Positions 1 through 21,250 of a DNA stretch of 37,797 nt are shown in pieces. Below the pieces are notes generated by a model, which had not been told where the DNA came from, ran no database searches, and saw nothing but the letters and a program-made list of their open reading frames with translations. The stretch is from the NCBI GenBank assembly GCA_024421095.1, contig JAHQYM010000017.1, forward strand, positions 1 to 37,797, read 5' to 3'. Within the stretch, counting starts at the first letter, position 1. Each line of letters begins with the position of its first letter. This DNA is from Acidimicrobiia bacterium. GTDB lineage: Bacteria; Actinomycetota; Acidimicrobiia; Acidimicrobiales; Aldehydirespiratoraceae. Position numbers and translations under genes: made by a program.

Positions 1-460
1 GCCACCACGAACTTTTCGTGAGCCCAAAGTTCCTGTTCAAACTTGAGCCCCGGAGCGTTGTGTTTGATTGACTGACGAAGTCGAAAACCAACAGAAGACA
101 CCACCGGCACTCTACCGAATGCCGCGCTGGTTACGGATCCAAGACCCTAGTTTGACAGAACTTACCTAACCTTATGTTTCCTATGCGCTTCAAGGATAAG
201 ATCAATCAACGTCAAGCAGACTCTTCGGTTGAGATCATCCCATGGTTCAAACCCTACCGCAACGTTTTGCTGACGGACTACAGAATCTTGGCGAGCCATC
301 GCCCGAAGTCCACCGTTTTAGCGAAGTTGTGGCAAGGGGACGATGAACAGTTATCATCAAGCCGAAACGCTCAAGGGCAACAGGGGCTCAATGATCCGCA
401 CAGTGCAACGAACCGCGTACGTTGAGACACTGTTGTATGCAATTTAGGATGGGATGCTAT
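1..460. other. Left-edge stretch without a convincing gene
   Basis: This 460-bp stretch precedes queC. An 83-codon open frame at 174-425 has no recognisable domain and no ribosome binding site, so I do not call it a gene. A perfect 6-bp inverted repeat with a 3-nt loop lies at 6-20 (arms CACGAA and TTCGTG), but it has no following T tract. The only other signal is a promoter-like pair at 152-178, listed separately. It may be the left flank of the Dpd island, but no tRNA, integrase or attachment site is visible. Confidence 0.5.
152..178 (+). promoter_or_regulatory. Candidate promoter for the queC-queE-queD operon
   Basis: A perfect TTGACA (152-157) is followed by TATGTT (173-178) with a 15-nt spacer, which is shorter than the usual 17. 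It lies about 280 bp upstream of the queC start, so the leader would be long. This is a consensus match only, and other promoters closer to queC are possible. Confidence 0.3.
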
Positions 461-1797: not shown

Positions 1798-1799
1798 CT

Positions 1800-2162
1800 A
1801 TGGAGATTTTCACAGAATTCACCTTTGAGGCAGCACACCGCCTCCCGAACACACCTGAGGGACACAAGTGCTCTCGACTCCATGGCCACTCATACCGAGT
1901 TTCCATCCACGTCGAAGGCCCTGTCGACCAGGATGCTGGCTGGATCATTGACTTTGCGGATATCACATGCGCGTTCAAACCACTCCTCCACCGCCTCGAC
2001 CACTACTACCTCAATGACATTGAAGGACTTGAGAACCCCACCAGCGAGAACTTGGCCTGCTGGATTTGGGAACGGCTTGAAGATCACTTGCGTGGACTGA
2101 GCCAAGTCGTGGTTCGAGAAACATGTACATCGGGCTGCGTATACCGAGGAACCAAGGAGTAA
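1800..2162 (+). CDS. queD: 6-carboxy-5,6,7,8-tetrahydropterin synthase QueD
   Basis: QueD turns dihydroneopterin triphosphate into 6-carboxy-tetrahydropterin, the step before QueE. The 120-residue protein has zinc ligands H13, H28 and H30 (in AAHR and HGHS) and catalytic C24. Their spacing matches E. coli QueD with a constant offset of three. The C-terminal RETCTSG segment carries the substrate-binding glutamate. The ATG at 1800 is 2 nt after the queE stop. Earlier in-frame starts would overlap queE by about 100 nt and add unrelated sequence. No folE for the preceding GTP cyclohydrolase I step is in this window. Confidence 0.94.
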
Positions 2163-5300: not shown

Positions 5301-5509
5301 ATAGTGCCGACAGATTTGCGCAAGACCGCCGCAAGACTCTGCAATGGCGTGCTGAGCGTATTGAAGGAACGCTCGAGCGCTCTCTGGCCGAAGCAGAACT
5401 GCAGATGGAAGATGAACTCGTTTCGCTGATCCGAACAGGCCTTAAGACACCTCAAGTGTCGATGGTTGCAGCAGTTGCCACAGTTGTCGCAGGATTTCAA
5501 ATTGACTGA
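2372..5509 (+). CDS. dpdE: DpdE, SNF2/RapA-like helicase of the Dpd system
   Basis: This is a 1045-residue superfamily 2 ATPase of the SNF2/RapA type, assigned to DpdE from its helicase type, size and position beside dpdF. Motif I is DEVGLGKT (184-191), the Walker B box is DEAH (263-266) and motif III is TATP (296-299). The second helicase lobe carries the SNF2-type motif VI around residue 625 (RIGRVDRF). A charged, coiled-coil-like stretch lies near residues 700-725. Dpd SNF2-type proteins belong to the restriction side of the system and are thought to move along DNA. The GTG at 2372 overlaps a perfect AGGAGGTGA; the next in-frame start, GTG 2402, is 27 nt beyond it. The start is therefore uncertain, though the N terminus appears to begin close to here. 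Confidence 0.85.
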   Translation: MSVVGLRGSFVVDTALPLGFARCEASDADSAEIAYTDLPEVAVKRCRVPIDRLAPQHLPEEMRVWLRNKFFGWSPGRVKSVLASGEYLLQFPGIAQPVSVPRDAITVRWDQPVTDPDIAVAIGMTDAPTYMRARLPLMQNLVAQRAACRGYTSILSAAVRPYLHQVDTMTRVLEDPLMRYVLADEVGLGKTIEAGLIIRQLFLDDPSTRVLVCVPGSLRVQWIKELTQKLLLGGMIESGNLQVVEYDDLPLLATLRPKMLVIDEAHRMVERGLQDAVEMAILRDAAHETESLLLLTATPLRGHARTFLGLLHLIDGDAYPLEDVSGFERRLEMREEQASAIELLDPQVPTTVLQEVVRAIREQHVDDPRVVNLVAKLESEIAKSEGPTESTLDALSSHLRETYRISRRVIRNRRSAVTETGFRVAGRQFVDIVIDDPARPITDVFLDEWRNVLLKEEGRSNAQFNEVLERCLAGPMALFLYLERRRAAIEDATANAVGPVEVALLDQTMSHLRTTGVNARFEAILDLVRPSQAKRQQKVVVFSCFSDVAEALTTLLRDKFGARAVASHLGSSSTEEQQISAQRFLEDRACRILVCDSSSEEGRNLQTATMLVHHDIPLSANRLEQRIGRVDRFHEALSERVPSLVLCEPGSVWVSSHLEFLRDGVGIFDTSAASLQRPLLAVHGRLLEDALAIGAEGLIRDADTLREELQEEREQIELLEEIEATSGTSVFDSVAVEDLEDFEETWGDTAAAFGRLFSEDGGIRLPVADVPDCPGLFSIQFDQQLRTVPLIPLHYLKELGPLLHGKLTYNRVVARRSPGSRLMRLGDPLVDWIDRYTRLDERGRASAIWRYIPGIQQPTLFFGFHFLIEFDDRVLSAYPSSIRERLRRRGDTLLPPGWETVWTNAQQEAPRNIVEDLLDPCIAHRGKNDRPLRGPRWNQALEHFPDWELRARSAGTHVHECLEARDSVKERVSEALDSADRFAQDRRKTLQWRAERIEGTLERSLAEAELQMEDELVSLIRTGLKTPQVSMVAAVATVVAGFQID

Positions 5510-8069
5510 ATCTCAAGCACCACTGCCTGGCGATATCGAAGCGAGTCGATTTCGCGATTTTATCAAGAGTCCTCAGTCTCCTCCCCCGAAACCATTTCAG
5601 GACTCTCTCTTTGCTCGCGTATACGACGCACTGAATTCGCAAGATGGAACAACAATCGACGTCATGGTGCTGATACGTCAAGTGCTGAGACGAGCATCTG
5701 AGCGTGACGAGAAACAATTTCGGCTTACCGTTGATTTGCCCTACTCCACTGAAGAATGGTCATCCGTTGGGGTAACAGCTGTTCAAGCATCGGATCGAAG
5801 ACTCATGTTGGAGGCGGAGCCATGGAGGCCTACATGGCTCGGCTGCGACGGCTATGCAGTTGACAGATCGTCTCTTGCTGGATCAATTCACGGGCGAAGG
5901 GCTCGATTCGACGACCTCCCAGCCGACGATTTCTTCGAGGTAGCGACTGGTCATAAGTCCTTTCGAACAGCCGGTCAAAGAGCTGCCGTGCGGGCAGCGG
6001 TTTCGATGCCAGGGAGTTCGACCCTAGTTGCAATGCTTCCAACCGGGTCAGGGAAGACCGAGATTGCACTCACGATTGCCTGTCATTCGAGGCGCCAGAC
6101 GACGATCATTGTTGTACCTACGGTCGCTCTCGCGTACGATCTTGAGCGGCGCTTTCGAGATGAGTTCGGTCGGGTCAATAAGCGGGTCACTAAGGGTGAC
6201 CTTGTTTTCGCCTGGACATATGAGACCAGTTCCGAGCAACGCGAACAGATGAAACAACTGTTGGCAACCGGTGGCATACCAATTCTTGTCACATCTCCAG
6301 AATCTCTCACCGGAGCGCTCCTAGACTCGGTTCGCGTAGGCGCAGAAGCTGGTCGTATTCGAGCGCTCGTAATCGACGAAGCTCATCTGGTTACCCAGTG
6401 GGGCCGTGATTTTCGGCCGGAGTTCCGGAATTTAGCAAATCTGCGAAGCGACTTACTATCAAGGTGCGACCGCGGTGGCCATCCGGGCTTTTTGACGATA
6501 CTCCTTTCTGCGACTCTGGGCCCTGTCGAATTGGCTGACTTGCATGACCTCTTTTCGAAACCGGGCCCGCTTTCGCTGGTCGCTGCAAATTCGCTCAGAT
6601 CGGAACCGGAGTACTGGATTGCTAGTGCTGCCAAAGAGAATCTACGACGCGCGAGGGTGCTAGAGGCACTGAAACGATTGCCTCGCCCCCTAATCCTTTA
6701 TGTAACCCGTCCTGCGAGGGCTGACGAGTGGGAGCGCTTCCTCAAGAACGAAGGCTTTGGTCGAGTGGCGGTCGTGACCGGTCACACTGCAGGCGATTTT
6801 CGACGAGATGTCCTTGGTGGTCTTCGTGCGGGATTAGGGTCGAGTTCTCGCTATGACGTAGTCATCGCCACATCCGCATTTGGCCTGGGAATCGACAACG
6901 AGCAGATCCGATCCGTCGTGCATGCATGCCTACCTGAGACACTTGATCGGTGGTACCAGGAAGTCGGACGCTCTGGTCGGGATGGGAACACATCAGCGGC
7001 CGTGCTCCTACCCGGTCCCGAAGACCACGGCGAGGCGGCAAGCCTAGGGACCACCGTTCTCAAACCGGATACGGCCGAGACACGGTGGAAGACACTGTGG
7101 AGTTCGCGTCGTCGAATCGGGGACGAAGAGTATGTCGATTTGCACTTATCGCCACAAGGATCGGAGAAGGGGTCGTACAATCGCCGGTGGAATGCGCAGG
7201 TTCTCAAGGGCTTGGAGGAACTTGATCAGATTGAGCGCGTGCCTCTGGCTCCCTACGAAGCTGCAGACTGCGAGTTGCCCGTGGGCAATATGAAGGAGTC
7301 GCATGAGTGGGAAAAGGTCACGCTACGAGACATGCGGGTGCATGACGATGGGTTCTTCGATCAAGTCTGGGAACCGTGGCGCCAGGAGTTGATCGAGCAC
7401 AGTTCACACGCGTTGGCGAGCATGAGGGAGGTCTTTGCTCAGGATGCTGCCGTGTGTGAACTGCTTGCGACGGCCTATCGACCCAAAGACTCCACGCTGA
7501 AAACCTTTGGGGACAGCGCATTCGGGATGGAGTTGGACCCAGGCTGTGGACGGTGTCCCGCGTGCAGAAGTCAAGGCGTCCATGATGTTGTAGATCCGCC
7601 GCCGCGGGGTAGATATTCGTGGGCCACTGCCTACTCGTGGGACGAGAGGCTGCGACCATTGCTTAATGCCTGTCCTTCATCGGAGTTTCTCGCGCTACTG
7701 CACTCGGAGGACCCACTGGTTGACGGCCGCGATCTAGCCGATCTCCTCCTTCGGGTCGGAGTGAAGACAGTTGCAGGCGTAGAGCCATCCGGTAACCCGT
7801 CGGAGTGGTGGTTTAGAGACTCACAACAAGTGCATCCAACAGATCTCCCACCTCTCCCGGCATTTGTGGTGCCACCTGTAGGCGAGCGACTGGATCAGGC
7901 GTGGCTAACACCGCTTGTTCGTCCCAGAGACGTAAAGGGACATGTCGTTCCCGCAGTCCTCCTCGTACAGACGGGTTCGCTTGTGGGTGTCCAGGGTCTA
8001 CCTGTAGAACGGCACCCATCGCTCAGCGCACATACAGCCCGCATGTACATTGCGGAGAACGCTGGATGA
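5502..8069 (+). CDS. dpdF: DpdF, RecQ-like helicase of the Dpd system
   Basis: This is a RecQ-family DEAH helicase of about 855 residues. Motif I is PTGSGKT (about 180-186), DEAH is at 292-295, a SAT motif follows, and motif VI is QEVGRSGRDG (486-495). A cysteine knuckle CGRCPAC (C682, C685, C688) in the C-terminal half resembles a zinc site. I chose TTG 5502, with AGGA 7 nt upstream, which overlaps dpdE by 8 nt. An upstream in-frame TTG at 5466 would add 12 residues of dpdE overlap and has no clear binding site. Dpd islands pair this helicase with DpdE, and the order here agrees. It probably unwinds or remodels target DNA during restriction; that role is inferred. Confidence 0.85.
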   Translation: MTESQAPLPGDIEASRFRDFIKSPQSPPPKPFQDSLFARVYDALNSQDGTTIDVMVLIRQVLRRASERDEKQFRLTVDLPYSTEEWSSVGVTAVQASDRRLMLEAEPWRPTWLGCDGYAVDRSSLAGSIHGRRARFDDLPADDFFEVATGHKSFRTAGQRAAVRAAVSMPGSSTLVAMLPTGSGKTEIALTIACHSRRQTTIIVVPTVALAYDLERRFRDEFGRVNKRVTKGDLVFAWTYETSSEQREQMKQLLATGGIPILVTSPESLTGALLDSVRVGAEAGRIRALVIDEAHLVTQWGRDFRPEFRNLANLRSDLLSRCDRGGHPGFLTILLSATLGPVELADLHDLFSKPGPLSLVAANSLRSEPEYWIASAAKENLRRARVLEALKRLPRPLILYVTRPARADEWERFLKNEGFGRVAVVTGHTAGDFRRDVLGGLRAGLGSSSRYDVVIATSAFGLGIDNEQIRSVVHACLPETLDRWYQEVGRSGRDGNTSAAVLLPGPEDHGEAASLGTTVLKPDTAETRWKTLWSSRRRIGDEEYVDLHLSPQGSEKGSYNRRWNAQVLKGLEELDQIERVPLAPYEAADCELPVGNMKESHEWEKVTLRDMRVHDDGFFDQVWEPWRQELIEHSSHALASMREVFAQDAAVCELLATAYRPKDSTLKTFGDSAFGMELDPGCGRCPACRSQGVHDVVDPPPRGRYSWATAYSWDERLRPLLNACPSSEFLALLHSEDPLVDGRDLADLLLRVGVKTVAGVEPSGNPSEWWFRDSQQVHPTDLPPLPAFVVPPVGERLDQAWLTPLVRPRDVKGHVVPAVLLVQTGSLVGVQGLPVERHPSLSAHTARMYIAENAG

Positions 8070-8950
8070 ACTACCTGTCTGGAGCAGCCACTCAAGCAAA
8101 CGTGGCGATTCTTTGGGTGGTCACGAGATGGCTGGCACGGGTCAAGGTGTCCACCATTTCTGAACTTTCACAGGCTGTGCGACCGCCCACGATTGCAACG
8201 GGCGCCGACAACGCACTGCGAGCGACACTCCTTGTCGGTCGAGATATTGGAGTATTGGATTCTCCTAGTGATGATGGGCCATGGTCCCTTGGGCCATCGT
8301 GCGATGTCTGCTGCCTGACCCGTCATGACAATTTTCGCACGGTTGTGCGCAATGCTCTGCTTACTCGTGCGGTTTCAGAACTAGCGGCGGGCAACAATCC
8401 GTCCGACGTTGCAGTCGGTCTCGCCTGGCTTCTCAGCCTTGATCCTACAAGGCCTCCGGATTGGTCGTACGACCAACCAGAACAGTTGCTGCGGGCGTCT
8501 GGGCAGATGAAAGAAGTAATCTCGAACCCGGAGCAGTGGAGGGTGCTCCGCCGATGGGCTCTGCAACTAGGTTTCGCGGTTCAGAGCCGAGCCGACAATC
8601 ACAGGCAGCAAAGACTGCTCCCAGATCCCGTTCGCGCGATCATCGAATCACTAGACGGGTTGTCGCAGAATTTGACCGCAAGCGATTTTCTGGAACAACT
8701 CGCAGGACAGCTTCCAGTGATCGATACCGGAGCGCTTCATTTGTATCTTGAAGATCTTGGTGTCAAATTCACTGCAAGAGCAGAAGCAACGATCGGGCCT
8801 GCTACTGGATTCGCCTTAGAGCGGTTACACCGTCGAGGTGTGCTCACACTCCAGACGACTGATGACGCTCTAAATCGTGTGAGTTATCGATGGGCAGGAC
8901 AGACCTCAGTCTTTGACAGGGTCGAGATTGAAAGCCTGACCGATGAGTGA
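8066..8950 (+). CDS. dpdG: DpdG-like protein of unknown function
   Basis: This is a 294-residue protein with no motif I recognise. The assignment to DpdG rests on its place between the RecQ-like helicase and the large ATPase, the usual Dpd gene order. The first 80 residues look helical and could form a winged helix, followed by mixed helix and loop; this is a guess from residue pattern. The ATG overlaps the dpdF stop as ATGA and has GGAG 8 nt upstream, so the start is secure. It overlaps dpdH by 8 nt. No catalytic residues can be named. Confidence 0.65.
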   Translation: MNYLSGAATQANVAILWVVTRWLARVKVSTISELSQAVRPPTIATGADNALRATLLVGRDIGVLDSPSDDGPWSLGPSCDVCCLTRHDNFRTVVRNALLTRAVSELAAGNNPSDVAVGLAWLLSLDPTRPPDWSYDQPEQLLRASGQMKEVISNPEQWRVLRRWALQLGFAVQSRADNHRQQRLLPDPVRAIIESLDGLSQNLTASDFLEQLAGQLPVIDTGALHLYLEDLGVKFTARAEATIGPATGFALERLHRRGVLTLQTTDDALNRVSYRWAGQTSVFDRVEIESLTDE

Positions 8951-11900
8951 TTCGTTTACGGCATTCCGTTGTTGGTCTCCCGACATTGTTCAAGGTTCTG
9001 TCTATGGAGACATCGCGATGCTCGGTCTCGACGATGACCCTATCTTCATGGCCGCTCATACATCTTTGCACATCAGGCGTATCCGTGGAGCAACTGTTGA
9101 AGCCGAGACGCCAGAGGTTGAAGTACTACGGTCTCTGATGAATTCGATTGGTGATACGAATCGGAACACGACTATCGCCATCACCGGTCCATCCGGGTCC
9201 GGAAAGTCACATCTCGTTCGATGGCTCAGAACGCACCTAACGGAGGACGATTCTCGATACCACCTGATCTATGTGCCTCGCGAGTTGGCGACACTTCGCG
9301 TTCTGATTGAACGGGTGCTTGATGGACTCCCGCATAGCCGCGAATCCGATGATGTTCGAAAGGAACTGGAAAAGGCAGTCGGCAAGAAGCCAGCGGATCA
9401 GATTTCTGAGGAACTCCTCGATCGAATTCGGTCGGTCTTGAATTTCGAAACGCCTGATTTGCTTGATGGCCAAGACTCAGAGATAAGACGGATGTTGCTA
9501 GGAACACGGTCTGAGAGTGATGGTTCACGGCGAGTTGGCGGCCTTGGAGATCTACTGCTCGCCCCGGGGATTCGCAGTCACCTTCTCCGTTCTGACGGGG
9601 CCATCGCCCATATTGTCGAATCTCTCCGCGGAAACAGATCAGGACGCGACGAGACTATTCCTGAGTTCTCACCGAGCGATCTGATCACAAAGCGATCAGG
9701 TATTCGCAGTTCGCTGGATGAGACACTAAAACGGCTCTGGGGAACTATTCAAAGAGATCCAGATTCAGCCGTAAGACTATTGAATGAAGTACTTCCTCGT
9801 GCTGTCGCCGAGTCACTCGGCATGAGACAGGGTGTGAACCTAGGAGAAGTTTTCCGCGCAAGTCGGATGCACCTACGCGACCAAGGCAAGGATCTCGTGC
9901 TCCTTTTCGAAGATCTGGCTCAGTTCGGCCTATTCGACGGAGAACTCTTCGATCAGTTCGTACACCAACCGGGCGGTGACCTCGCTCCGATCCGATCTGT
10001 CTTTGCAATTACAGATGGCAAATTCAATGAATCCGTGCCAGATACCGTGGCGACGCGTCTGGCGCACCAGTTCGAGATCGGCCCCCTCAACCTCGCGACC
10101 GACGGCGAGTCCCTTGTTGAACTCGCCGCCCGATACTTGAATGTCGCACGAGTTGGCAAGGATCGTCTTGTAACTGCCTGGAACGCAGCCCCTGATATCG
10201 ATCGAGAGAGCGGAGCCTGGATTCCAAATCACTGTATCGACCAAGCCAACGGTAGTGAGTGCCCGCATCGCTCGGACTGCTGGACAGCGTTTGGCAGCAA
10301 CCTCGATATTGGCCTGTACCCGTACAACCGTGCGGCATTGGATCGAGCTGCACGTCGAGAGGGACGTGGCATGGATAATGGAGTAACTGCACGCGTGGTC
10401 GTTGATCGGTTCATTCGTGAGTTCCTCCTGGAGGCTTATGGTGAGATTGGGCGCGGGTACTTCCCAGGTAAGCAAGCACGCGAGAGGTTCGACGTCTCCG
10501 TGGCGCGATCCAAAGACGAGGTTGTGCCAGACACCAGATTGTCCGAATCAGAGCGGGATCGACTCAACCGGGCAAGGGTCATTTGGGCGAATGGTGAACG
10601 CGAAGAAGTTGGGATTACCGAAGCCTTCTCGCTACCCACGGCAGATGCTGTGGAACACCACGAGGCTCCAGTTGTGCCGGATAACCGTCATGCCCCTTCG
10701 GACTCAATAGACCCGAAGCCGCTAGGGAGACGCCCTCTTCAGACGCTCTTCGACTGGGAATCCGGTACACCTCTTCCCAATAAGGAAGCGGTCTTCTACC
10801 GCGAGAACCTGTACCGACTCGTAGCGGCACGGATTGACTACGATTCACTCCTCATCGACCCGAGATCTTCGCCAGCTGCGTTGCTCTGCGATCGACTGTT
10901 GGCGAGAAACTCCTTTGAATTTACTCGTGAAGATCCTGGACGGAAAGCCGGACGTGATCAACTTCACTTTGAGATTCTTCCAAATAGCCGTGGTATAAAA
11001 CTCTTGAGTGCTGTCCGATGGTTCTCAGACCATGGACATTGGGAGATGGACGATCCGGACAGGCTATGGGATTTTGGAGGTGATTCACGTGAAGCCCAAA
11101 TCGTCTTCGAAGAATTCCTTTCGGACTGTGCGCAAACAGTCGAGGCCGTGCTTATTGCAAGGATACAACGAGGTTTTCTCGATCCATCGGCCGCATGCGT
11201 CGTGCTCAGGTACACCGCCCTAGCCGTGCTAGGGGCGAGTCCGCCTTCAGACGATGCAGGAGCCGTTCTCGATTATGCTCTATGCGAGTCGACTCGTTCT
11301 AATACTCAAGTTTCTTCAGCGTGGTTGCCAGCAGCCAATGTTGCAAAACGCATTCTCAGCACCCTAGATCAGTCTTGGGTTGTGGCATTTGCCACGGCCA
11401 GACAGGGAGACACTGGCGACCCACAGGTGGTAGATGCGAGCCGTCTCATCCCGTGGCTCGAACACATTAAATCGGTTCCAGTTGCCTTTCTGGACCAGGA
11501 TCCTTTATTTGACGACAACTCATTCCAAATACTCAATGAACATTGGGTTGAACTCCGCGCCTCGGTAAACTCGTGTTGGGAACAAGAGAGAGATAATCTC
11601 CTTGGTCAACTCAATGAGATCTCATCAGTTCTCGGGGATACCGATGTCCAAGAGGTTGTTGCAACCGTCGCGAGCACAGGCAATGTGGCAGCCGGGGAGA
11701 ATATTTTTCGACCTCAGCACAAATACAACGACTTCACATTGGCGTGCGATAGGCTAACGCGATTTTCGGATGAGGAAATTGCCGCATGGCTTTCTGCGAT
11801 CGAGCGACTAGAAAACGAGCAGAATTCGGTTGCCACAGTGATAGTAGCGCAGCAATGGGCGGGTCACGCGAGACAGGTAGCTACTGATATCCGGCTTGTG

Positions 11901-12041
11901 CTCGAATGTCTAGAGGAAACTCGTGACGAAGTCATCGCCCAACTTGCTGATGAAGTCGGCGAGAGGCCTGATACAATATCGGAACGGATCGCGGATCAAC
12001 TTGATGATATAGCGGAGACCCTCCACGGAATTGCCGGTTAG
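8943..12041 (+). CDS. dpdH: DpdH, large P-loop ATPase of the Dpd system
   Basis: This is a 1032-residue P-loop protein. Walker A is GPSGSGKS (82-89). A Walker B-like hydrophobic strand ending in Glu-Asp (LVLLFED, about 318-324) suggests an AAA or STAND-like ATPase. A cysteine cluster near residue 430 (CX8CX5C) may bind metal. The C-terminal third is helical. The ATG at 8943 overlaps the end of dpdG by 8 nt, and dpdI begins 6 nt after the stop. In Dpd islands this ATPase belongs to the restriction set. A motor or sensor role is inference, because no biochemical function is known to me. Confidence 0.78.
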   Translation: MSDSFTAFRCWSPDIVQGSVYGDIAMLGLDDDPIFMAAHTSLHIRRIRGATVEAETPEVEVLRSLMNSIGDTNRNTTIAITGPSGSGKSHLVRWLRTHLTEDDSRYHLIYVPRELATLRVLIERVLDGLPHSRESDDVRKELEKAVGKKPADQISEELLDRIRSVLNFETPDLLDGQDSEIRRMLLGTRSESDGSRRVGGLGDLLLAPGIRSHLLRSDGAIAHIVESLRGNRSGRDETIPEFSPSDLITKRSGIRSSLDETLKRLWGTIQRDPDSAVRLLNEVLPRAVAESLGMRQGVNLGEVFRASRMHLRDQGKDLVLLFEDLAQFGLFDGELFDQFVHQPGGDLAPIRSVFAITDGKFNESVPDTVATRLAHQFEIGPLNLATDGESLVELAARYLNVARVGKDRLVTAWNAAPDIDRESGAWIPNHCIDQANGSECPHRSDCWTAFGSNLDIGLYPYNRAALDRAARREGRGMDNGVTARVVVDRFIREFLLEAYGEIGRGYFPGKQARERFDVSVARSKDEVVPDTRLSESERDRLNRARVIWANGEREEVGITEAFSLPTADAVEHHEAPVVPDNRHAPSDSIDPKPLGRRPLQTLFDWESGTPLPNKEAVFYRENLYRLVAARIDYDSLLIDPRSSPAALLCDRLLARNSFEFTREDPGRKAGRDQLHFEILPNSRGIKLLSAVRWFSDHGHWEMDDPDRLWDFGGDSREAQIVFEEFLSDCAQTVEAVLIARIQRGFLDPSAACVVLRYTALAVLGASPPSDDAGAVLDYALCESTRSNTQVSSAWLPAANVAKRILSTLDQSWVVAFATARQGDTGDPQVVDASRLIPWLEHIKSVPVAFLDQDPLFDDNSFQILNEHWVELRASVNSCWEQERDNLLGQLNEISSVLGDTDVQEVVATVASTGNVAAGENIFRPQHKYNDFTLACDRLTRFSDEEIAAWLSAIERLENEQNSVATVIVAQQWAGHARQVATDIRLVLECLEETRDEVIAQLADEVGERPDTISERIADQLDDIAETLHGIAG

Positions 12042-12047
12042 TCGCGA

Positions 12048-12761
12048 ATGTCCAATTCACCGTTGAAAGAGATTGCACAACAGATCCGGAGTGATATCAG
12101 ATCTCTTAACCAAAGGGAGAGTGTCACTCACCAAGTGAATATGTTATCTCGAAGAGAGAACACTCTTAAGCGACTCGCAGCGGAACTGAATGATCAACTC
12201 AAGATCGTGATGGCGGCTCGGTCCACAGATGTTGTTCTGCAGACTGAAGGATTCGAGAGCACAGCACGGCTGTCTGTCTCACTTGCGTCCGCAACACGGA
12301 AAGCAGAATTGGACTTGGATGAGATCGATAGGTTTCAGAGTGATGCAAGAACTCAGATGACTCATTTGAGGGACGAGATCTCCATGGAGTGGCAGGCACT
12401 TGTGGAACGGCGTGTTCCCGCTCAGGAGGGGCTCAAGGATTTGGTCGAAACCTTTCACAGCATTGGGGGGGCAAACGATCTAGTCAGCGAACTCGCTCGT
12501 ATCGAAAACAACATTAGGAAACTCAACCGCTCAGGTCCGTCTATTGAAGCCCTCGAACAACTCGATCAGTACGCATCTCGTCTACCCGAAGTGCTTGAGC
12601 AACTTGTCGGAGAGGATCAAGCTGTCCGGTCATTTGCCAGTCTCGTCGCGCGCGGTGGAGCTCCAATCGATGGGCTTACGCCCACGGTCCGGGAGTGGTT
12701 GCAGGCGAAGGGGTTCGAGACTTCCTTCAAGATTGTTGCCGGACATCCAGTGGGGGACTAG
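12048..12761 (+). CDS. dpdI: DpdI-like coiled-coil protein
   Basis: This is a 237-residue, strongly charged and mostly helical protein. Residues about 1-135 have a heptad-like pattern that suggests a long coiled coil, and the last 70 residues look like a small globular end. No enzymatic motif is visible. It sits between the large ATPase and the DpdJ helicase, where Dpd islands carry DpdI, and the name rests on that. Its stop directly abuts the dpdJ ATG, so the two are probably translated together. It could be an adaptor joining DpdH to DpdJ; that is inference. Confidence 0.65.
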   Translation: MSNSPLKEIAQQIRSDIRSLNQRESVTHQVNMLSRRENTLKRLAAELNDQLKIVMAARSTDVVLQTEGFESTARLSVSLASATRKAELDLDEIDRFQSDARTQMTHLRDEISMEWQALVERRVPAQEGLKDLVETFHSIGGANDLVSELARIENNIRKLNRSGPSIEALEQLDQYASRLPEVLEQLVGEDQAVRSFASLVARGGAPIDGLTPTVREWLQAKGFETSFKIVAGHPVGD

Positions 12762-15700
12762 ATGGCCGTCGATAGAGAACTTCTCATCGAGGCCCAAACT
12801 CGGCTCGAACTTCGAGAAAACGAACTTCTGTCCTGGGGGATTGTTGACGCCGCCTTTACTGAAGGAGAGTTAGAGGCAATTCTCACCGAGGTCGCATCGG
12901 ACGTAGCTTCGGTCCAGGGATTGAAAGAGGAATTGCTCGATCGCGTTCTTATTGCTCGGGTTCCGTCGGGTGGATACCGGACTCGCATGGCGGAAACGCT
13001 CCGCACTCTGTCACGTCTTCGCCAGTCATTTCCCACTCAGCAATGGTGGGAAGGGACTCCTCTGGTGCTCGACTACCGGTTTGTCCATCGGCCACGTAGA
13101 CGTCCGCGCCGCGATCGGCCAAGAAATGAACTCATCACGCATCTTGCTCAGCGCGTCAGCGCCAATGGCAGACTGGCAGCCGAGCGCTGTGTGCCGACTC
13201 ACATCTCCGGGTTCCAGTTTCGCTCGGCCGAGGCGGTGCTGGATGCCTATTCGCGAACTCACGATACAGCGGTCATGGTCACGGCGGGAACGGGAGCAGG
13301 AAAGACTATGGCCTTTTATCTACCTGCGATGTCGTTAGTCGCCGAAAGTGTTGGTGAAAACTCAGCGGCATGTGTTCGCCTTCTGGCGCTTTACCCTCGA
13401 GGTGAGTTGTTGAAAGACCAGTTGCGTGCCGCAATCCAACTATCTATGAGGATTGGCCAGGTGCAGGATCGGCCGATCCGCGTGGGGACGTGGTTTGGCG
13501 CGACTCCTCGGGCTGCATTCTGGCTCCGCGAGGGTTGGGTGAAGGATTGGAAACTGCGACGCGATCGCGGAGTCGACCTTGGTTGGGACTGTCCTTTCCT
13601 AACGTGCCCGATGTGCAACTCGACCCTGATATGGAACTACTCAGATGTTGAGGCCAGTCGTGAGCAACTCCATTGCATTAGTGAGAACTGTGGACAGGTA
13701 ATCGGCTCTGAATTCATTACTCTGACGCGCGAGCGAGCCGCGAGCGATCCACCGGACCTGATGTTCACGACCACGGAGTCACTCAACAGGCAACTGGCGG
13801 CTCCCGATCAACACCGCGCGTTTGGGCTACGCGGCAAGCGAGCGCGGATGGTACTGCTTGATGAAGTCCACACCTACGAGGGAACGTCGGGGGCACAAAA
13901 CGCCTTGTTGCTGCGACGGTTGCGCAAGACAATCGCTGCTCCCGTCGTTTGGGCTGGTCTTTCGGCAACCTTGGAGGATGCACCGCGATTTCTTGCAGGT
14001 CTGACCGGGGTCTTCGATGACCGGGTATTGCATGTTGAACCTCTGCCAGATGAGTTGGAAGAGACAGGAGCGGAGTACATGGTGGCTCTTCGCCACGACC
14101 CTTCTTCGCTGACCAGTCCCCTGTCTACGACGATCCAAACAGCAATGGCGATCACAAGGGCTTTGGATGCTCGCGGAACGCCCTACAATCCAGCACCTTC
14201 CTCCGAAGGGATTTTTGGTCGAAAGACCTTCGTATTCACCGACAAACTTGATGTCACGAACCGGCTCTATTGGGACCTTCTTGATGCTGAAGGTTGGTGG
14301 CAGCCAGGTCGCCCCAAGAACAGGCGGGTTCTGACTCTGGCCCACCTTCGAGCGGAGGAGCAACTCCGTAGGAAGCCCGACGAACAAGAAGCAGCAACGG
14401 ACCGAGACTCCCCCGGTCAGTGGTGGTGGCTTGCTGAGGCACTTGGTCGAGACCTTGGAGGCGATGAGCAACTTGTCGTCGACCGTACTTACTCGTCGGA
14501 TTCCGGTGTGAACCAGGACGCAGAGGTCATAGTGACAACTGCGAGCTTGGAAGTAGGGTACGACGACCCCGACGTCGGTGCTGTAATTCAGCATAAGTCA
14601 CCTCATGATCTAGCTCGCTTTGTCCAGAGGAAGGGTAGGGCGGGCCGAGATCCCTCGATGCGACCTTGGACGGCTGTGGTACTTGCCGATTGGGGAAGAG
14701 ACCGGGTGACGTGGCAGTTGTATGACCAACTTTTCGATCCTGTACTCAGTCCGCGGTATCTGCCGATCAAGAACCGCCACGTATTGCGCATGCAAACTGT
14801 CTACGCAACACTCGATTGGGCAGGCGGTCGCCTTGATGCTGAAGGCCGGGACCGATCTCTATGGTCGGACCTGGCTGGCCCAGCGTCAGTGCTTGAAACA
14901 AGTGACCAGAGAATACGCGCACGTCGCGATCGCCAAGAGAAGTTGGGGTACCTACTACAGGAAGTGCTTGATGGTGGACCTGCCCGGGACCACCTCCGCG
15001 CTCATCTCCGGCGCGCTCTCGGACTTGGCGACGGCGATCGCGGACGGGCTGAACTCGATGAACTTCTCTGGGGATCTCCGCGGCCACTCATGCTAGCCGT
15101 CCTTCCAACAGCTTTGCGGAGACTCCGAAGCAACTGGTCCGGAGAGGTCCCAACAAGACAAGACCATTCAGTTCGGACCCGCACACCGATGAGGGAATTC
15201 GTTGCAGGCAATCTGTTCGATGATCTCATGGTCCCAGAGGTGGAGATCCGTGTCCCGTCTGACATTAACTCAGACGCAGACGACTATGGGACCGAAACGC
15301 TACCTGTGCTTCGGACCATCCGAGAGTTGATGCCTGGGAATGTGACACGCCACTTCGGTGTGTCATCCTGGAGTAGGCGGCACTGGGTCCCGCTCTCAAC
15401 CCAGGAATCAGGCGAGATAACGCTCAATGTCGTAGATGCGTATCGTGCGCACTATGTCACTTCTCTGCCTGCCTCTCCAAAATCTCCTTCGCCGATTGAC
15501 CTATACCGGCCAATGGAAGTTACGCTCTCGGTGCCCCCAGAACACGTGCGAGACTCCAGTTCGGTGCTGCCGGTGTGGCGTTGCATCATTGACTCACTCG
15601 GGTCCGGTCGCGAGATCGCGATCAACTCTAAGCAGTGGCAGCCAGTTCTTTCCTCGGTTTGCTTCCACACACATGCCCTAGGTGACGGGGCCAGAGTCCA

Positions 15701-17309
15701 TCGTATGGCCCTTGGTGCACACGGATCCACTGTCGTAGCCGGTGGCGCGGAGCCAGAACCGGTCGTGATTACCTTCGAATCATCCAGTCGGAACGAGAAT
15801 CGTGTAGGTCTTGGGGTCGAGATAGAAGTTGACGCCGTCCAACTCCAAGTCCAGGTGACATCTTCCGGTGCCTTACCTCTACCCGTCGAACGAAGCGACC
15901 GACTTCGAAGCTTGATCATGGGCGATGAGGCACTGCCCGTGAATCTCAACTGGTTTCAGAGGCTCGCTTTGGCTTCAGCCCTGGTGGTCGTCCTGGTCGA
16001 GGAGTGCAATCGTGAGCCCGCCGCGAAGATTCTTGATGAACTTGCGGACTCATCGCTGTCTGACGCCTTGATAGACGCTCTCGAGCGCATTGGGTTACTC
16101 GCTGCAGGCGACCCGCATGCGCTTGACGCTGGTCAAACCGGTGACGCTGGTGGTGAATCGCACAACGAAGGGAGTCGCCGCCATCGGATGATCGCCTGGT
16201 GCCGCCACGAAACTGTTCTGCAATCGATCCGTGAAGCTGCAGACAATGCTCTGGGCCCCCGCGACCAAGAATGGGAGCAGTGGCGCAGACGAAGGATCGC
16301 TGCGACCGTGGCAGCAACAGTCGTGGAGGCAGGGAGTCGAGTATGTCCTGATATCAGTGCGGAGGAACTGGTAATCGATCTTGGTGAGACAGACGAACTC
16401 ACTGGCTTGGTTGAGGTCTGGATCACCGAACTGGCACCCGGTGGCAATGGGCAGGTGGAGGAATTGCTTCGGGCGATGGCGCACGACCCTCAGCAGTTCG
16501 GGCGGGTTCTGGAACGCTGCCTAGAGCCGAGTGAGATTGAGTCGCTTGATGGGGAACTAAGGGAATTTCTAGCGCTCGTCGTCCAGAACAATGAGTTGAT
16601 GAATGCTTGTCGGAGGCTACAGGAGTCTTGGGTGGCCGGACACACTGAAGTGTCCCGGGCTTTTGTTGCGTTGCGGTCGGCTGCTGAGGAACGGGGCTTC
16701 AAGCCACACCGGGCCGCCTGGACGACGGTGGTTAACCGCCTCCTCCGACCTGGTTCGCGGCCCGAACTGCTATCTACCGCCCAGGACTTACTCCAACGGT
16801 GGGACGATCTAAAGTCGAGACTCGGGCTTGAAATTGATGTCAGAGCTTTTGGAGCTCTATGTGCAGACGAGGACACCCTGGACCTTGCATTTCACCTACC
16901 TCCTGGTGCTGATGGGATCCTTCGGAGTAGGACGGTCAGCAACTTCTTCTGGCCACGAAGTGGCAGTGCTACGAGTCTAGGGTCGGACAAGTCAGATCCA
17001 TTCGGCGTTCTTCCAGAACTGGACCGAAGTGGTCTACGAGAACTCCTTGGGAATGACCCGAAGACGCTTTTCCTCGACACCTGGAACGACACCGAGCGCC
17101 ATCGTGTTCACGATAGCCTTCGAGAGTCAGGCGATGTACGCCTTAGTTTCTTGCCTAAGGACAACAGATTAGCGCGCGACGTTATACTAGACCTGCAGGA
17201 CGTTCCGACAGATATCGGAGTATTGTTTTCCTACCCGAGCATTGTCGGAATCGAACGAACTCACAATATGAGTACTGTCGTCACGATATCAATGGCGGAA
17301 GTGCCGTGA
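12762..17309 (+). CDS. dpdJ: DpdJ, YprA/COG1205-like helicase of the Dpd system
   Basis: At 1515 residues this is the largest protein in the window. It is a superfamily 2 helicase with motif I AGTGAGKT (about 174-181), a DEVH box (367-370), a SAT motif and motif VI QRKGRAGRD (622-630). Between motif I and the DEVH box lies a zinc-ribbon-like insert with cysteines near 277, 282, 285, 305 and 310. The architecture resembles YprA-type helicases and DrmA of DISARM. The C-terminal 700 residues have no motif I know. The ATG abuts the dpdI stop and has a G-rich binding site 5 nt upstream. The stop overlaps the dpdK GTG as GTGA. Confidence 0.85.
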   Translation: MAVDRELLIEAQTRLELRENELLSWGIVDAAFTEGELEAILTEVASDVASVQGLKEELLDRVLIARVPSGGYRTRMAETLRTLSRLRQSFPTQQWWEGTPLVLDYRFVHRPRRRPRRDRPRNELITHLAQRVSANGRLAAERCVPTHISGFQFRSAEAVLDAYSRTHDTAVMVTAGTGAGKTMAFYLPAMSLVAESVGENSAACVRLLALYPRGELLKDQLRAAIQLSMRIGQVQDRPIRVGTWFGATPRAAFWLREGWVKDWKLRRDRGVDLGWDCPFLTCPMCNSTLIWNYSDVEASREQLHCISENCGQVIGSEFITLTRERAASDPPDLMFTTTESLNRQLAAPDQHRAFGLRGKRARMVLLDEVHTYEGTSGAQNALLLRRLRKTIAAPVVWAGLSATLEDAPRFLAGLTGVFDDRVLHVEPLPDELEETGAEYMVALRHDPSSLTSPLSTTIQTAMAITRALDARGTPYNPAPSSEGIFGRKTFVFTDKLDVTNRLYWDLLDAEGWWQPGRPKNRRVLTLAHLRAEEQLRRKPDEQEAATDRDSPGQWWWLAEALGRDLGGDEQLVVDRTYSSDSGVNQDAEVIVTTASLEVGYDDPDVGAVIQHKSPHDLARFVQRKGRAGRDPSMRPWTAVVLADWGRDRVTWQLYDQLFDPVLSPRYLPIKNRHVLRMQTVYATLDWAGGRLDAEGRDRSLWSDLAGPASVLETSDQRIRARRDRQEKLGYLLQEVLDGGPARDHLRAHLRRALGLGDGDRGRAELDELLWGSPRPLMLAVLPTALRRLRSNWSGEVPTRQDHSVRTRTPMREFVAGNLFDDLMVPEVEIRVPSDINSDADDYGTETLPVLRTIRELMPGNVTRHFGVSSWSRRHWVPLSTQESGEITLNVVDAYRAHYVTSLPASPKSPSPIDLYRPMEVTLSVPPEHVRDSSSVLPVWRCIIDSLGSGREIAINSKQWQPVLSSVCFHTHALGDGARVHRMALGAHGSTVVAGGAEPEPVVITFESSSRNENRVGLGVEIEVDAVQLQVQVTSSGALPLPVERSDRLRSLIMGDEALPVNLNWFQRLALASALVVVLVEECNREPAAKILDELADSSLSDALIDALERIGLLAAGDPHALDAGQTGDAGGESHNEGSRRHRMIAWCRHETVLQSIREAADNALGPRDQEWEQWRRRRIAATVAATVVEAGSRVCPDISAEELVIDLGETDELTGLVEVWITELAPGGNGQVEELLRAMAHDPQQFGRVLERCLEPSEIESLDGELREFLALVVQNNELMNACRRLQESWVAGHTEVSRAFVALRSAAEERGFKPHRAAWTTVVNRLLRPGSRPELLSTAQDLLQRWDDLKSRLGLEIDVRAFGALCADEDTLDLAFHLPPGADGILRSRTVSNFFWPRSGSATSLGSDKSDPFGVLPELDRSGLRELLGNDPKTLFLDTWNDTERHRVHDSLRESGDVRLSFLPKDNRLARDVILDLQDVPTDIGVLFSYPSIVGIERTHNMSTVVTISMAEVP

Positions 17310-17836
17310 GCCGGGTAATTCGAAAGTCACGTCAGCGCGCCAGCGTTGAGGCCGCCTCGCTATTATCTTCAGTGTTTTCGGCGGAGTTGTTAGCGCCTAG
17401 TAAATGTCTTTGGATTGTCTCTCCATGGATATCCGATATTCCACTTATCGATAATACTGCTGGTTTGTTTCAACCTCTTGAAGCATTTGGTCGGCGACAA
17501 ATTCGCCTGTCTGAAGTGCTGGCTGTACTCGCCGGAGAGGGGACTACAGTCGTCGTAGGGACGACTGGAGCCGAATCGAACGAGTTATTCAAGGCTCGAG
17601 TTAAGGCTGTATTTTCAGACCGCGGTCTCAGGGAGTATCTGAACATCAATGTGGATGCTTCAAACGAACTCCATGAGAAAGCAATCACAGCTGACGACTA
17701 TGTGATCACCGGTTCGATGAATATCACGAATAATGGAGTTTTTGTTCGTGAAGAATTTATTGAATTCCGTAGGGATAGCGAATTTGTGGCCCGGGCCCGT
17801 ATGGATTCATTTGAGAGGTTCGGTGGCAAACTATGA
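17306..17836 (+). CDS. dpdK: DpdK, phospholipase D-like nuclease candidate
   Basis: This is a 176-residue protein with one HKD motif of the phospholipase D superfamily: H123, K125 and D130, followed by GSMN (136-139). A single HKD motif fits nucleases of this fold that act as dimers. It is the only visible nuclease-like active site in the plus-strand block, so it is the best candidate for cutting unmodified DNA; this is inference. The GTG start overlaps dpdJ by 4 nt and the stop overlaps the next ATG by 4 nt. Its place directly after the DpdJ helicase mirrors the helicase and phospholipase D pair in DISARM. Confidence 0.83.
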   Translation: MSRVIRKSRQRASVEAASLLSSVFSAELLAPSKCLWIVSPWISDIPLIDNTAGLFQPLEAFGRRQIRLSEVLAVLAGEGTTVVVGTTGAESNELFKARVKAVFSDRGLREYLNINVDASNELHEKAITADDYVITGSMNITNNGVFVREEFIEFRRDSEFVARARMDSFERFGGKL

Positions 17837-19983
17837 GCGACCTAATCGTCTCGACCTCCAACTTCAACGAAGTTATCCGTGTGCTTGGACCCTACGGTGA
17901 ACGTACCCAGGCGGTGGTTGATCGTCAGTCTCAACTATGGGATACAGCGACTTTCCGTTGGGCGGTGATTCCGTTTGTCGACGGTGCAGGTGTGCGATGG
18001 GACTTCGTAGCAGTGGACAATGAATCTGAGCGTCGTGGACGGGAGATTGTATTGGCCTTCTTTGGTCCATTCGCATCGGTCCCCAACGACGGCGGACAAG
18101 ATTCCCCCACAGGAGGTGCATATTATCACCAAGTGCCCCTGGCAGTATCTGGAGGTCTCGGCAGGTTTGTCGAGACCTTGGAGTTAATGGTCAGTGTGAG
18201 GTCTGATGAACCTGACCTTCGTAGAGAGATCTCGGATCCGATCAGTCTACTACTTCGGGATTTCTATCTCGCTCTCGACCGAACCGACTCAGTCACCTCA
18301 AACGAGATCTTGAGCCGGATCGAGGCGACGGGCCAATTTAGCAGCGAGAACCTTCGATTCCTTCAGGTAGAACGTCTTGGGCGACTTGGCTATTGGCAAG
18401 AGTTGTCAGGTCTGCCGTGGTTCGCAGACCTTGCTCGCACTCGTCGGCCTCGACGTATCTCCGAACACATGTTGGAGAGTGTATGGCGGGCAAATTTTGA
18501 TGAGGCTGCCGTTGGTGCGGATCCAAACGTCGCATTTGAGGGATTTGTCGAACTAGGTCTCGAGGAGACTTACGGGCGGTTACTCCAGAGTGTTGACATT
18601 CCTCAGACCGTCTCGGGGCGGCGGTTGGTGTGTGTCTCGGCCCACATTGCTGGCAATAGTGCTCGAGTCAAGAGATTGTTGGCCTCTGCTTCTGACGGCG
18701 AACTTCCGGTATTGCGCCTCCTGGGCACCGTTTCTATGGACGGCGCTGCACAGGTGGATGATGGTCTGTCCGTTGAGGAACGAGCACGCGAACATCTGGG
18801 CCGAGGGGAGTTCGTTGAAGTGGTCGCTCTTGCGGAGATTCAATCTGACCCCAACCTCGCTTCACTCGCAGTCCATGCGGCATACGAACTCAACGATCCG
18901 AACTCTTGCTCGCTGGCTATGGAAGCGGTAGGCAGAGTCAGTTCGTCTTCCCTGCCCAAGACTCGTCAGTTCCAGACCATCCTGGGCGAGGTCGAGCGGT
19001 TAGCGACCAATAGGTGTAATGGTTGGTCAGACTGGTTGTCCAGGATTGCAGCCGATGAGCTTTGGGTTGGGGCGTCGGATGTGGCTCGCGAGTGTTCGCC
19101 TCAGTGGGACATCAATGAGTTGCTGGTTGAGGTAGCAGCAGATACAGCTGCAAACGCACTGCACACGGCGGGTGAGGGGATCAATCGGCGGGAACTGCGC
19201 GCCGTATTGGACCTGTTGTGCGGTCTCGTAGGAAAAATAGTGGACCGGCCAGTCGCCGATCCCATTGTCGACGCAATTCTTCTCGTTCTCGCGCTCGACG
19301 AAAACCCGTCAGCACCAGTGAGAGATGCGTTCTTTCGCCTAGCAACCGATGTCCTCCACTCTGGGCCAACTGTTTCGAGATACAAAGACCTCGTCGCAAT
19401 TGCTCAAGACCTATGGCAACGAGTAGGCGCCCGCGAAACCGTTGTTTGGGCGCTTGACCTCGCTGATGCACTCGCCGTTGCCCCGAGTCCCGATCCTGGA
19501 GTTCTCCGCGAGTTTATGGTTGCGGTTGGAAACAAGATCATGCCCTTCGCAAGCCGACTGGCACTTGACGAGAGACGCTCGATTGAAACGTTGGCAACGG
19601 AGTGCGGTACGAACGTTGTTCTGCCTCCCCTAGACACCGTGCCCGAGGCCAGTCAGAACGATATCTGGAATCAACTAACCGGTTCATCAGTAGGGCTATA
19701 CTCGTTATTGGAAGGCGCGGGAGGTCGGTTCGAAAAGCGGTTGCGCGATCTGTGCCGTGATGTTGAGGTCATGCACAATGCCGACAAGGTCGCGACCCAT
19801 GCTCTGCAGACGATGGCGAAACGTGTGAACTTCCTAATTGTGGACACTCGGCATGCAAGTCATGCAGCAACGGCAACGGTTGATGCGGTTCGCCCAAGAT
19901 CACTTCAGTTGTTTCCAAACGGAGGAGGAATCTCAAGCTTCATCGCAATACTTCGGGAAGCGCTTATTGATACCGGCGCATAG
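17833..19983 (+). CDS. dpdD: DpdD-like protein of unknown function
   Basis: This is a 716-residue protein with no motif I recognise. I assign it to DpdD by elimination: the other expected Dpd proteins are accounted for, the size fits, and it ends the operon. The first 110 residues look like a mixed alpha/beta domain; the rest is largely helical, possibly repeat-like. The ATG overlaps the dpdK stop as ATGA. It converges on dpdB across a 106-bp gap (19984-20089) in which I see no clear terminator. No active-site residues can be proposed. It could also be a lineage-specific addition to the island rather than true DpdD. Confidence 0.55.
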   Translation: MSDLIVSTSNFNEVIRVLGPYGERTQAVVDRQSQLWDTATFRWAVIPFVDGAGVRWDFVAVDNESERRGREIVLAFFGPFASVPNDGGQDSPTGGAYYHQVPLAVSGGLGRFVETLELMVSVRSDEPDLRREISDPISLLLRDFYLALDRTDSVTSNEILSRIEATGQFSSENLRFLQVERLGRLGYWQELSGLPWFADLARTRRPRRISEHMLESVWRANFDEAAVGADPNVAFEGFVELGLEETYGRLLQSVDIPQTVSGRRLVCVSAHIAGNSARVKRLLASASDGELPVLRLLGTVSMDGAAQVDDGLSVEERAREHLGRGEFVEVVALAEIQSDPNLASLAVHAAYELNDPNSCSLAMEAVGRVSSSSLPKTRQFQTILGEVERLATNRCNGWSDWLSRIAADELWVGASDVARECSPQWDINELLVEVAADTAANALHTAGEGINRRELRAVLDLLCGLVGKIVDRPVADPIVDAILLVLALDENPSAPVRDAFFRLATDVLHSGPTVSRYKDLVAIAQDLWQRVGARETVVWALDLADALAVAPSPDPGVLREFMVAVGNKIMPFASRLALDERRSIETLATECGTNVVLPPLDTVPEASQNDIWNQLTGSSVGLYSLLEGAGGRFEKRLRDLCRDVEVMHNADKVATHALQTMAKRVNFLIVDTRHASHAATATVDAVRPRSLQLFPNGGGISSFIAILREALIDTGA

Positions 19984-20089: not shown

Positions 20090-21250
20090 TCAAGGGTTAG
20101 GTTGCGTTATAGATTGTGGTCTATCCCCAACGGATCGTTGGTATGCCGCTAGCAGGAAGTTCGTGAGCATTCGGATATCCTTTGAAGTATTTTGTAACTC
20201 GTTCCATCGTCGGGTGGAGTCAACTCCGAATCGCCAGTGGCCTGTGGTCCAACTGCAGTAGCCCAGAAGTGGTTTGATCTCCGTCATGTAGTCGAATTGG
20301 TCAGGCCATTGGTGTTTCGCTACGTGTCTGTCCGTAATGGCATCCATCACGAACCCCATACTCACGATGCCGACACCATGCATCAGCCTCGATCGTCGGG
20401 GGGGTTGGCCCCAGGGTTCGGGGAACACTGTCTTGACAGCGTTCCAGTAGTCCTTCAACAAATCAAGCATGCCTTCGATATCACCGCCGCCGGTTTCGGG
20501 ATCTCGCAGGTAGTAAAGACACCCGTCGGTCAGGCTGTTCTCAATCGTCCGAAGGATCGAATTGTCTTTGACGACCCCACCCGGTGTGGTAGGAGTTTGG
20601 ATGAGTTGCAAGAACGGGGAGTCTTCGTCGTAGTTAAGGCGTTCTAGCAATAGCGAGGGGAATTGCTTCCGCATCAGCGCCGGAGGCAATGGGCCACTCG
20701 TGGAAGGTAACAATTCGTAGATGAGACCTTTGGGTAATGGCTTAGTCGAGTTGACCAAAATGAACTGGGCGCGCTGTTCGCTTTCGGACGCTGCGATGAA
20801 CGCCGTCACACACATTGGGAACGCTCGTACGTCTGCCTCGCGAACTGCGGCGCAGCGTTGTTGGCCATCGACGATCCATCCAGGCTTCTCCTCGTCAGGA
20901 AGAGACTCGTCTACGGGGACGATGAGGTGGCCTGGCCGGGTTACCCACCCACGCTCCCGCGATTCCGTATCAGGTTCGAACCGTACACGCTCATCGAAGG
21001 CGACAACGATAGCGTTTGGGAGAAGTGGACTCTCCGATTCGATATAACTCTTGATCGCGGAAACGTGTGCCAGCACTTCAGGGCGTTGATATCCATCTAA
21101 TTCCCGCCCGATTCGTTTGACTCGTGACACAGTGGTGAACGAAGGCAACAATTTGCCATCAATCGCGAACATATACAAACGTTGACTTTGTCCCTGCCGG
21201 ACTTCGATAGTTGGAAGCCTCAATTCGTAAACCTTTGATGATTTCCCCAT
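20090..21250 (-). CDS. dpdB: DpdB, ParB/DndB-like DGQHR-domain partner of DpdA
   Basis: This is a 386-residue protein with the DGQHR-type signature, here DGQQR (128-132), related to DndB and the ParB/sulfiredoxin fold. The following VNSTKP segment is also typical of the family. In the Salmonella system DpdB is needed with DpdA for insertion of preQ0 into DNA and has ATPase activity. The ATG at 21250 is 2 nt after the dpdA stop, so the two genes are almost certainly coupled. The signature reads Gln at the usual His position, a conservative change whose effect is unknown. Confidence 0.9.
   Translation of the reverse strand: MGKSSKVYELRLPTIEVRQGQSQRLYMFAIDGKLLPSFTTVSRVKRIGRELDGYQRPEVLAHVSAIKSYIESESPLLPNAIVVAFDERVRFEPDTESRERGWVTRPGHLIVPVDESLPDEEKPGWIVDGQQRCAAVREADVRAFPMCVTAFIAASESEQRAQFILVNSTKPLPKGLIYELLPSTSGPLPPALMRKQFPSLLLERLNYDEDSPFLQLIQTPTTPGGVVKDNSILRTIENSLTDGCLYYLRDPETGGGDIEGMLDLLKDYWNAVKTVFPEPWGQPPRRSRLMHGVGIVSMGFVMDAITDRHVAKHQWPDQFDYMTEIKPLLGYCSWTTGHWRFGVDSTRRWNELQNTSKDIRMLTNFLLAAYQRSVGDRPQSITQPNP

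Follow-up and report, generated by a model that had tools for sequence, protein, structure and literature searches.

The eight restriction genes of Dpd islands, dpdE-F-G-H-I-J-K-D, are inherited jointly and are exchanged as a block relative to the marking genes dpdC-A-B, and this is the strongest result of the present analysis. The window, i.e., the whole stretch of 37,797 nucleotides that was analyzed, contains a complete Dpd island as judged by gene content and profile matches, with predicted functions in 7-deazaguanine marking of DNA and in restriction of unmarked DNA. The system as such was already known; the window adds a member of hybrid parentage, consisting of an Acidimicrobiia-type marking module and an Amycolatopsis-type restriction module. 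According to a recent review, the eight restriction genes lower transformation and the restriction activity was not further explored (PMC12707154).

Gene content and organization of the island

On the plus strand of the window, the preQ0 synthesis genes queC-queE-queD (422..2162) are followed by the restriction operon, while dpdB-A-C are located convergently on the minus strand. The operon starts with dpdE (2372..5509), encoding a SNF2-type helicase (NCBIfam, 818 bits), and continues with dpdF (5466..8069; RecQ-like helicase, 629.5 bits), dpdG (8066..8950; 294 aa, predicted tandem winged-helix protein, NF041064 with 114.5 bits at a cut-off of 80), dpdH (8943..12041; 1032 aa, AAA-type ATPase), dpdI (12048..12761; 237 aa, coiled coil whose C-terminal motif is conserved), dpdJ (12762..17309; 1515 aa, YprA-family helicase, 1327.8 bits at a cut-off of 800), dpdK (17306..17836; 176 aa, PLD-family nuclease candidate matching Pfam PLDc_2, 170.3 bits at a cut-off of 100) and dpdD (17833..19983; 716 aa, solenoid with a C-terminal DUF2325-like domain, 354.8 bits at a cut-off of 300). 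The curated NCBIfam cut-offs are thus passed by dpdE, F, G, J, K, and D. The marking module comprises dpdB (20090..21250; DGQHR/DndB-like, 475.8 bits at a cut-off of 300), dpdA (21253..22509; TGT-type base exchange enzyme, 577.2 bits at a cut-off of 200) and dpdC (22642..23604; DUF6884-like), the latter with 320 bits in a family profile constructed in this analysis, 24.4 bits and therefore a sub-cut-off score in PF21818, and no match in the NCBIfam scan.

The junctions F-G, G-H, H-I, I-J, J-K, and K-D measure -4, -8, +6, 0, -4, and -4 bp, respectively. The ORFs dpdG, H, I, J, K, and D correspond exactly to the interval 8066-19983 given in a preliminary description of this DNA, and the gene identities proposed there agree with the ORF calls and the NCBIfam and PADLOC matches, the name DpdI relying on its place in the operon and a profile of our own. 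As also described, dpdD is the 3′-most gene of the operon. The island is flanked by ordinary actinobacterial genes (F420-linked oxidoreductase, ilvB/ilvC, gatA/gatB), and among the best 80 of 311 matches, the nearest relatives of its DpdA come from Acidimicrobiia-type genomes. A 495-aa minus-strand ORF without Pfam or NCBIfam match (25033-26520) adjoins the island.

The Dpd systems of Salmonella Montevideo and E. coli consist of the same eleven gene families, organized in a marking (A-C) and a restriction (D-K) operon (PMC12707154; PMC11888242). In comparison to these, the window contains an actinobacterial island that includes queC-E-D of its own and combines marking and restriction modules of different parentage.

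Two modules with separate histories

For 34 complete islands, pairwise distances of the E, F, G, H, I, J, K, and D proteins are correlated with each other at r 0.88-0.98, and r is 0.83-0.93 among A, B, and C, while correlations between restriction and marking proteins reach only 0.55-0.70. Trees calculated for 36 islands give the same picture: any two restriction genes agree in 22-29 of 33 splits, with 0-3 supported conflicts, whereas marking and restriction trees have only 9 of 33 splits in common and 20 of the 28 supported splits of the marking tree are in conflict. The preliminary description had assumed a tight coupling of DpdG, DpdH, DpdI, and DpdD to the helicases and the nuclease candidate, and one packed operon with one common history bears this out.

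In the window, the marking genes group with those of Acidimicrobiia-type genomes (59% identity to G396), and the restriction genes group with those of Amycolatopsis and Allonocardiopsis (39% identity versus 28% to G396). In AU tests, the marking genes reject the restriction grouping (p 5e-41) and DpdJ rejects the marking grouping (p 6e-39); since the groups were selected after the trees had been seen, these p-values are optimistic. The corresponding likelihood gaps are large, with 218 and 490 units.

A long-branch artefact was considered as source of the tree conflict and was rejected, as such an exchange is also evident from the nucleotide sequences of E. coli islands, independent of any tree. 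Near-identical dpdA genes occur in 159 of 5,426 complete E. coli genomes and form three subtypes (54, 47, and 58 genomes); three unrelated dpdH types are present in 54, 46, and 58 genomes, and in the examples inspected subtypes and types form matched pairs. Between types, dpdC-A-B are 91-99% identical, in contrast to 34-41% for E, 33-41% for F, 28-34% for G, 30-37% for H, 22-25% for I, 40-51% for J, 38-51% for K, and 25-34% for D. Nucleotide homology extends up to the 3′ terminus of dpdB and returns at queD, and one of the restriction cassettes is inverted. Furthermore, H, J, and D of the type-1 cassette are 78-87% identical to their Tolumonas counterparts, with DpdA being only 69% identical, and Cedecea possesses a 96% identical DpdA next to a DpdH of 33% identity. 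The divergent cassettes beside nearly constant C-A-B genes, together with these mismatches, indicate that whole restriction cassettes were exchanged while the mark writer was kept. All eight restriction genes, including G, H, I, and D, travel as one block in this exchange.

Distribution of restriction genes among islands

For the survey, DpdA was searched against 84,980 species genomes and the best 80 of 311 matches were used. The annotated set of 63 contigs covers regions around 51 DpdA relatives, nine plasmid regions and the window, and was annotated by iterated profiles seeded with the window proteins. The full set of eight genes, in the fixed order E-F-G-H-I-J-K-D, is found in 39 of the 55 islands with H or J, distributed over several phyla. 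Two islands possess E to K without D, D being missing while K is kept in G409 and G413, and two others contain E, F, G, H, I, and J only, one of these being situated at the edge of the fetched sequence. In four islands that lack E, K, and D, the genes F, G, H, and I occur with a 2100-aa J whose N-terminal part is an SF1 helicase. J is present wherever H is, and G accompanies H in all bacterial islands with H. The two cyanobacterial islands of Scytonema (L030) and Allocoleopsis (L031) contain J and K without E-I; in L030 a TPR-DUF2325 protein resembling DpdD adjoins K, and L031 lacks any of G, H, I, and D. A lone and distant J-like helicase (G418) was excluded from the evidence.

Eight contigs carry marking genes without adjoining restriction genes, one of the genomes having its restriction genes on another contig. 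For G399, G411, G417, G419, G430, G432, and G436, dpdA-B-C were observed with neither restriction genes nearby nor a DpdH in the genome, which corresponds to marking without this restriction machine. BRIGADE systems are Dpd-like systems of haloarchaea (PMC12458937). The Haloferax plasmid L032, assigned to this kind, retains H, an I-like ORF, J-type helicases and a PLD protein in the order H-I-J, but differs from the window in its two YprA helicases, its distant DpdH and the lack of a recognizable DpdD.

Several further arrangements were observed in the course of the survey. DpdJ proteins that measure about 2100 aa and carry an SF1 helicase at the N-terminus, in the absence of dpdK and dpdD, were seen in L029 (2005-10598), G439, G441, G442, and G414, some of them with an ORF of 760-810 aa just upstream, the scanned copy of which had no Pfam match. 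The Paenibacillus plasmid island L027 encodes two DpdH-like ATPases (8370-11537 and 26939-30001) plus a second TGT. Many islands (e.g., G397, G402, L025) contain two dpdB copies flanking dpdA (B-A-B), compared to the single dpdB of the window. On the cyanobacterial plasmids L241 (3832-9403) and L242 (12854-18515), a short TGT flanked by two helicases is located next to a DpdA of about 700 aa with a DpdC-like N-terminal part, and may belong to a Dpd-like system of its own. A UvrD-type helicase together with a PD-(D/E)xK nuclease occurs in the Dpd-like cyanobacterial islands L030 (8793-12037) and L241 (12416-15940).

Predicted properties of DpdG, DpdH, DpdI, and DpdD

The AlphaFold2 model of DpdG (pLDDT 90.3, pTM 0.89) predicts two winged helices, at about aa 12-92 and aa 205-288. 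Its top-ranked fold matches, namely BrxA-like 3bhw (Z 6.4), FokI (1fok, 6.2), SspB (6juf, 6.0), the nickase N.BspD6I (2ewf, 5.8) and BrxA (7zge, 5.8 over 158 residues), form a coherent group at the fold level only, as Z scores below 8, and hence all of these (5.8-6.4), indicate arrangement and not kinship. We take 3bhw, the record of which says uncharacterised, to be of the BrxA kind. For the first winged helix on its own, the matches are MarR-type proteins. In its overall arrangement of two winged helices, the DpdG model may resemble BREX BrxA and SspB, at Z scores below the level that separates relatives; BrxA as sequence homolog of DpdG was dropped (HHalign 0.2%). A Pfam scan of the window sequence yielded no match for DpdG, the PADLOC and NCBIfam scans brought nothing new, and a PDB profile search gave a lone match with an E-value of 0.96. 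Good matches to DpdG among 296 actinobacterial genomes were restricted to the two Dpd islands.

In DpdH, Pfam AAA_22 and AAA_16 were detected in all 41 of 41 family members. The Walker A motif GPSGSGKS (aa 82-89; G82, G85, G87, K88, and S89 invariant) and the Walker B ED (aa 323-324, both residues invariant) are separated by a long distance unusual for a compact AAA domain; Y398, P460, and R484 are invariant as well. These features support the earlier view of DpdH as a probable ATPase or motor. Assignment to the family is clear by PADLOC (DpdH, 6e-149), with an NCBIfam score of 412.8 bits slightly below the cut-off of 450. Weak PADLOC likeness to SspC (1.7e-4) and BrxC (0.009) is restricted to the P-loop region, and the C-terminal half is helical, with a PDB profile search returning only designed bundles and coiled coils for it.

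DpdI scores 41.8 bits with its NCBIfam model NF041066 (cut-off 150) and was therefore named by position, length and our own profile, which included the window DpdI itself. In nearly all islands, H and J are separated by an ORF of 230-300 aa that corresponds to DpdI. Since a better profile recovered the seemingly absent copy of G406 between H and J, and only three islands had seemed to be without it, DpdI is nearly universal and too divergent for annotation to catch. Its alignment reveals a conserved C-terminal motif, F(L)..GA.L..LTpEV..WL. Family searches matched coiled-coil families only and the PDB profile search designed bundles or coiled coils only which, along with its conserved place in the islands, agrees with the coiled coil between H and J that had been described before. 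No DpdI homologs were found on plasmids. NF041066 also misses most other DpdI proteins (L024, L025, L026, L243, L245), which are hypothetical proteins in public records.

For DpdD, the AlphaFold2 model (pLDDT 85.5) predicts a helix and hairpin (aa 8-77), an alpha-solenoid (aa 108-590) and a Rossmann-like domain (aa 605-716). The possible solenoid tail of the preliminary description consequently exists as a solenoid, but it makes up the body of the protein, the tail being the globular domain. For the window sequence alone, no Pfam match was obtained, and the PADLOC and NCBIfam scans added nothing beyond the family name. At the family level, DUF2325 (PF10087) was matched by 14 of 39 members (best E 3e-4), single sequences remaining below the Pfam cut-off, and HHalign of the DpdD family against genuine DUF2325 proteins gave 91% (E 1e-6), compared to 0.1-4% for control pairs. 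H677 and G697 are invariant, Y623, L625, A679, G699, and S702 are conserved, and column 666 is Asp in 91% of the family and Asn in the window. The Rossmann-like domain with its His-Gly-Gly residues is therefore a candidate ligand pocket, which does not imply catalysis. Other DUF2325 proteins found were short or had coiled-coil N-termini instead of a long solenoid, and none of them has a ligand reported in the literature found. Matches of the solenoid to HEAT/ARM-like folds (Z about 10) were regarded as common solenoid shape, and a match to the release factor 2 N-domain in the PDB profile search (7e-5, over the solenoid) as helical likeness. On plasmids, few DpdD homologs were found. Neither the DUF2325 domain nor the cassette exchange was mentioned in the literature searched, outside of which the main Dpd papers lie, and priority is not claimed.

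The former statement that these four proteins show no known catalytic motif except the DpdH P-loop agrees with the Pfam scans, which are empty for DpdG and DpdD and give AAA alone for DpdH. It is partly outdated, as DpdD has a candidate ligand pocket in its DUF2325-like domain and the DpdG model shows winged helices.

Candidates for recognition of the mark

The reader of the mark is part of the co-moving restriction block, the sequence of which varies widely while the mark writers are nearly identical. It had been supposed that the recognizer is probably one of DpdG, DpdH, DpdI, and DpdD. The present data do not support this assumption, because these are the least conserved and fastest-diverging restriction proteins, with mean identities in the 34 complete islands of 24% (G), 24% (H), 18% (I), and 21% (D) versus 29% for E, 31% for F, 34% for K, and 36% for J, because L030 and L031 keep J and K without G, H, and I (L031 also without D), and because related DISARM helicases sense methylation. 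Nevertheless, fast divergence is compatible with recognition, since few residues can carry specificity, and neighboring genes in minimal islands such as L031 could stand in for G, H, and I.

DpdJ has been placed beside DISARM DrmA/DrmB in the YprA family (PMC12458937), and the DrmA-DrmB helicase complex responds to base methylation, being less active on methylated DNA (PMC9142583). DISARM (DrmA-DrmB-DrmC) and the Dpd system of the window both comprise a YprA-family helicase, a PLD nuclease and a SNF2 helicase. In contrast to DISARM, the predicted mark in the window is 7-deazaguanine, no DISARM counterpart was found here for G, H, I, and D, and scans of every ORF of the operon with Pfam and NCBIfam revealed no DISARM methyltransferase. 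By this analogy, in which the DISARM complex reads methylation and not deazaguanine, DpdJ appears likelier to be the reader than DpdG, the main alternative, followed by joint recognition by the complex.

We therefore tentatively favor, at somewhat less than an even chance, a single exchangeable restriction machine of eight proteins in which G, H, I, and D serve as structural and motor subunits and DpdJ reads the mark. Its basis is formed by which genes are present and in which order, by the folds predicted for them, including the hidden DUF2325 domain, and by joint inheritance and block exchange; the contacts and the direction of signaling between the subunits would be as follows. DpdG would bind DNA via its two winged helices, and the DpdH ATPase, together with DpdG, would load the complex onto DNA or move it there. 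The DpdI coiled coil would couple DpdH to DpdJ, which might open DNA like DrmA/DrmB, the mark being checked at this step. The solenoid of DpdD may serve as scaffold holding the J-K end, its Rossmann-like pocket, with a putative ligand, probably tuning activation, and DpdK would perform the cut. The components of the relay of motor, adaptor, helicase and nuclease suggested earlier are present, DpdJ and DpdK matching the YprA family and the PLD-type nuclease candidates, and the relay itself is what we infer from them. That cassettes are replaced wholesale while the mark writer remains constant is in keeping with a generic mark that is read by a conserved helicase.

Alternatively, the winged helices of DpdG could read the unmarked target as FokI reads its site, with DpdH-DpdI signaling to DpdJ-DpdK. 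The high-confidence model, fold matches to DNA-recognition parts (FokI, N.BspD6I) as well as to BrxA and SspB, and the constant company of G and H in bacterial islands would be in accordance with this, but the low mean identity of DpdG, a near-invariant polar surface limited to D267, N154 and few structural residues, the occurrence of J and K without G in some islands, and E. coli cassettes in which about 30% identical DpdG proteins pair with nearly identical mark writers make it doubtful. Rather doubtful, too, is a mark reading spread over the assembled complex, in which G-H-I, assembled into an ATPase oligomer comparable to BREX BrxC, would act as a platform for the licensing of J. The joint movement of the eight genes, the fact that G, H, and J are never lost from full islands, and the weak likeness of DpdH to SspC and BrxC would agree with such a platform; however, this likeness does not extend beyond the P-loop region, and minimal J-K islands exist.

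If Dpd restriction operons are interchangeable cassettes over one constant writer, a generic mark and not a co-evolved site would be read, and the DUF2325 domain of DpdD could provide a ligand-gated second input before DpdK, a combination that we consider improbable. A DpdD acting as signal-gated switch, which would activate or restrain DpdK upon binding a nucleotide, or a modified base, produced in the course of infection, is more improbable still: the invariant H677 and G697 and the near-invariant Y623, G699, and column 666 in a Rossmann-like fold, the proximity of D to K and the Scytonema TPR-DUF2325 protein beside J-K speak for it, against which stand the islands that keep K without D (G409, G413) and the lack of a reported ligand for DUF2325 proteins in the literature found. 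Finally, it is very unlikely that G, H, I, and D act outside restriction, as passengers or regulators. While the literature searched, which does not include the main Dpd papers, holds no published single-gene test, the packed operon, the common history and the maintenance of full-length ORFs across phyla argue against such a role.

The domains of DpdD and DpdG point to the residues for a first mutagenesis. As the three divergent restriction operons of E. coli accompany marking genes that are nearly identical, the question of how Dpd systems read their mark is testable by exchange.
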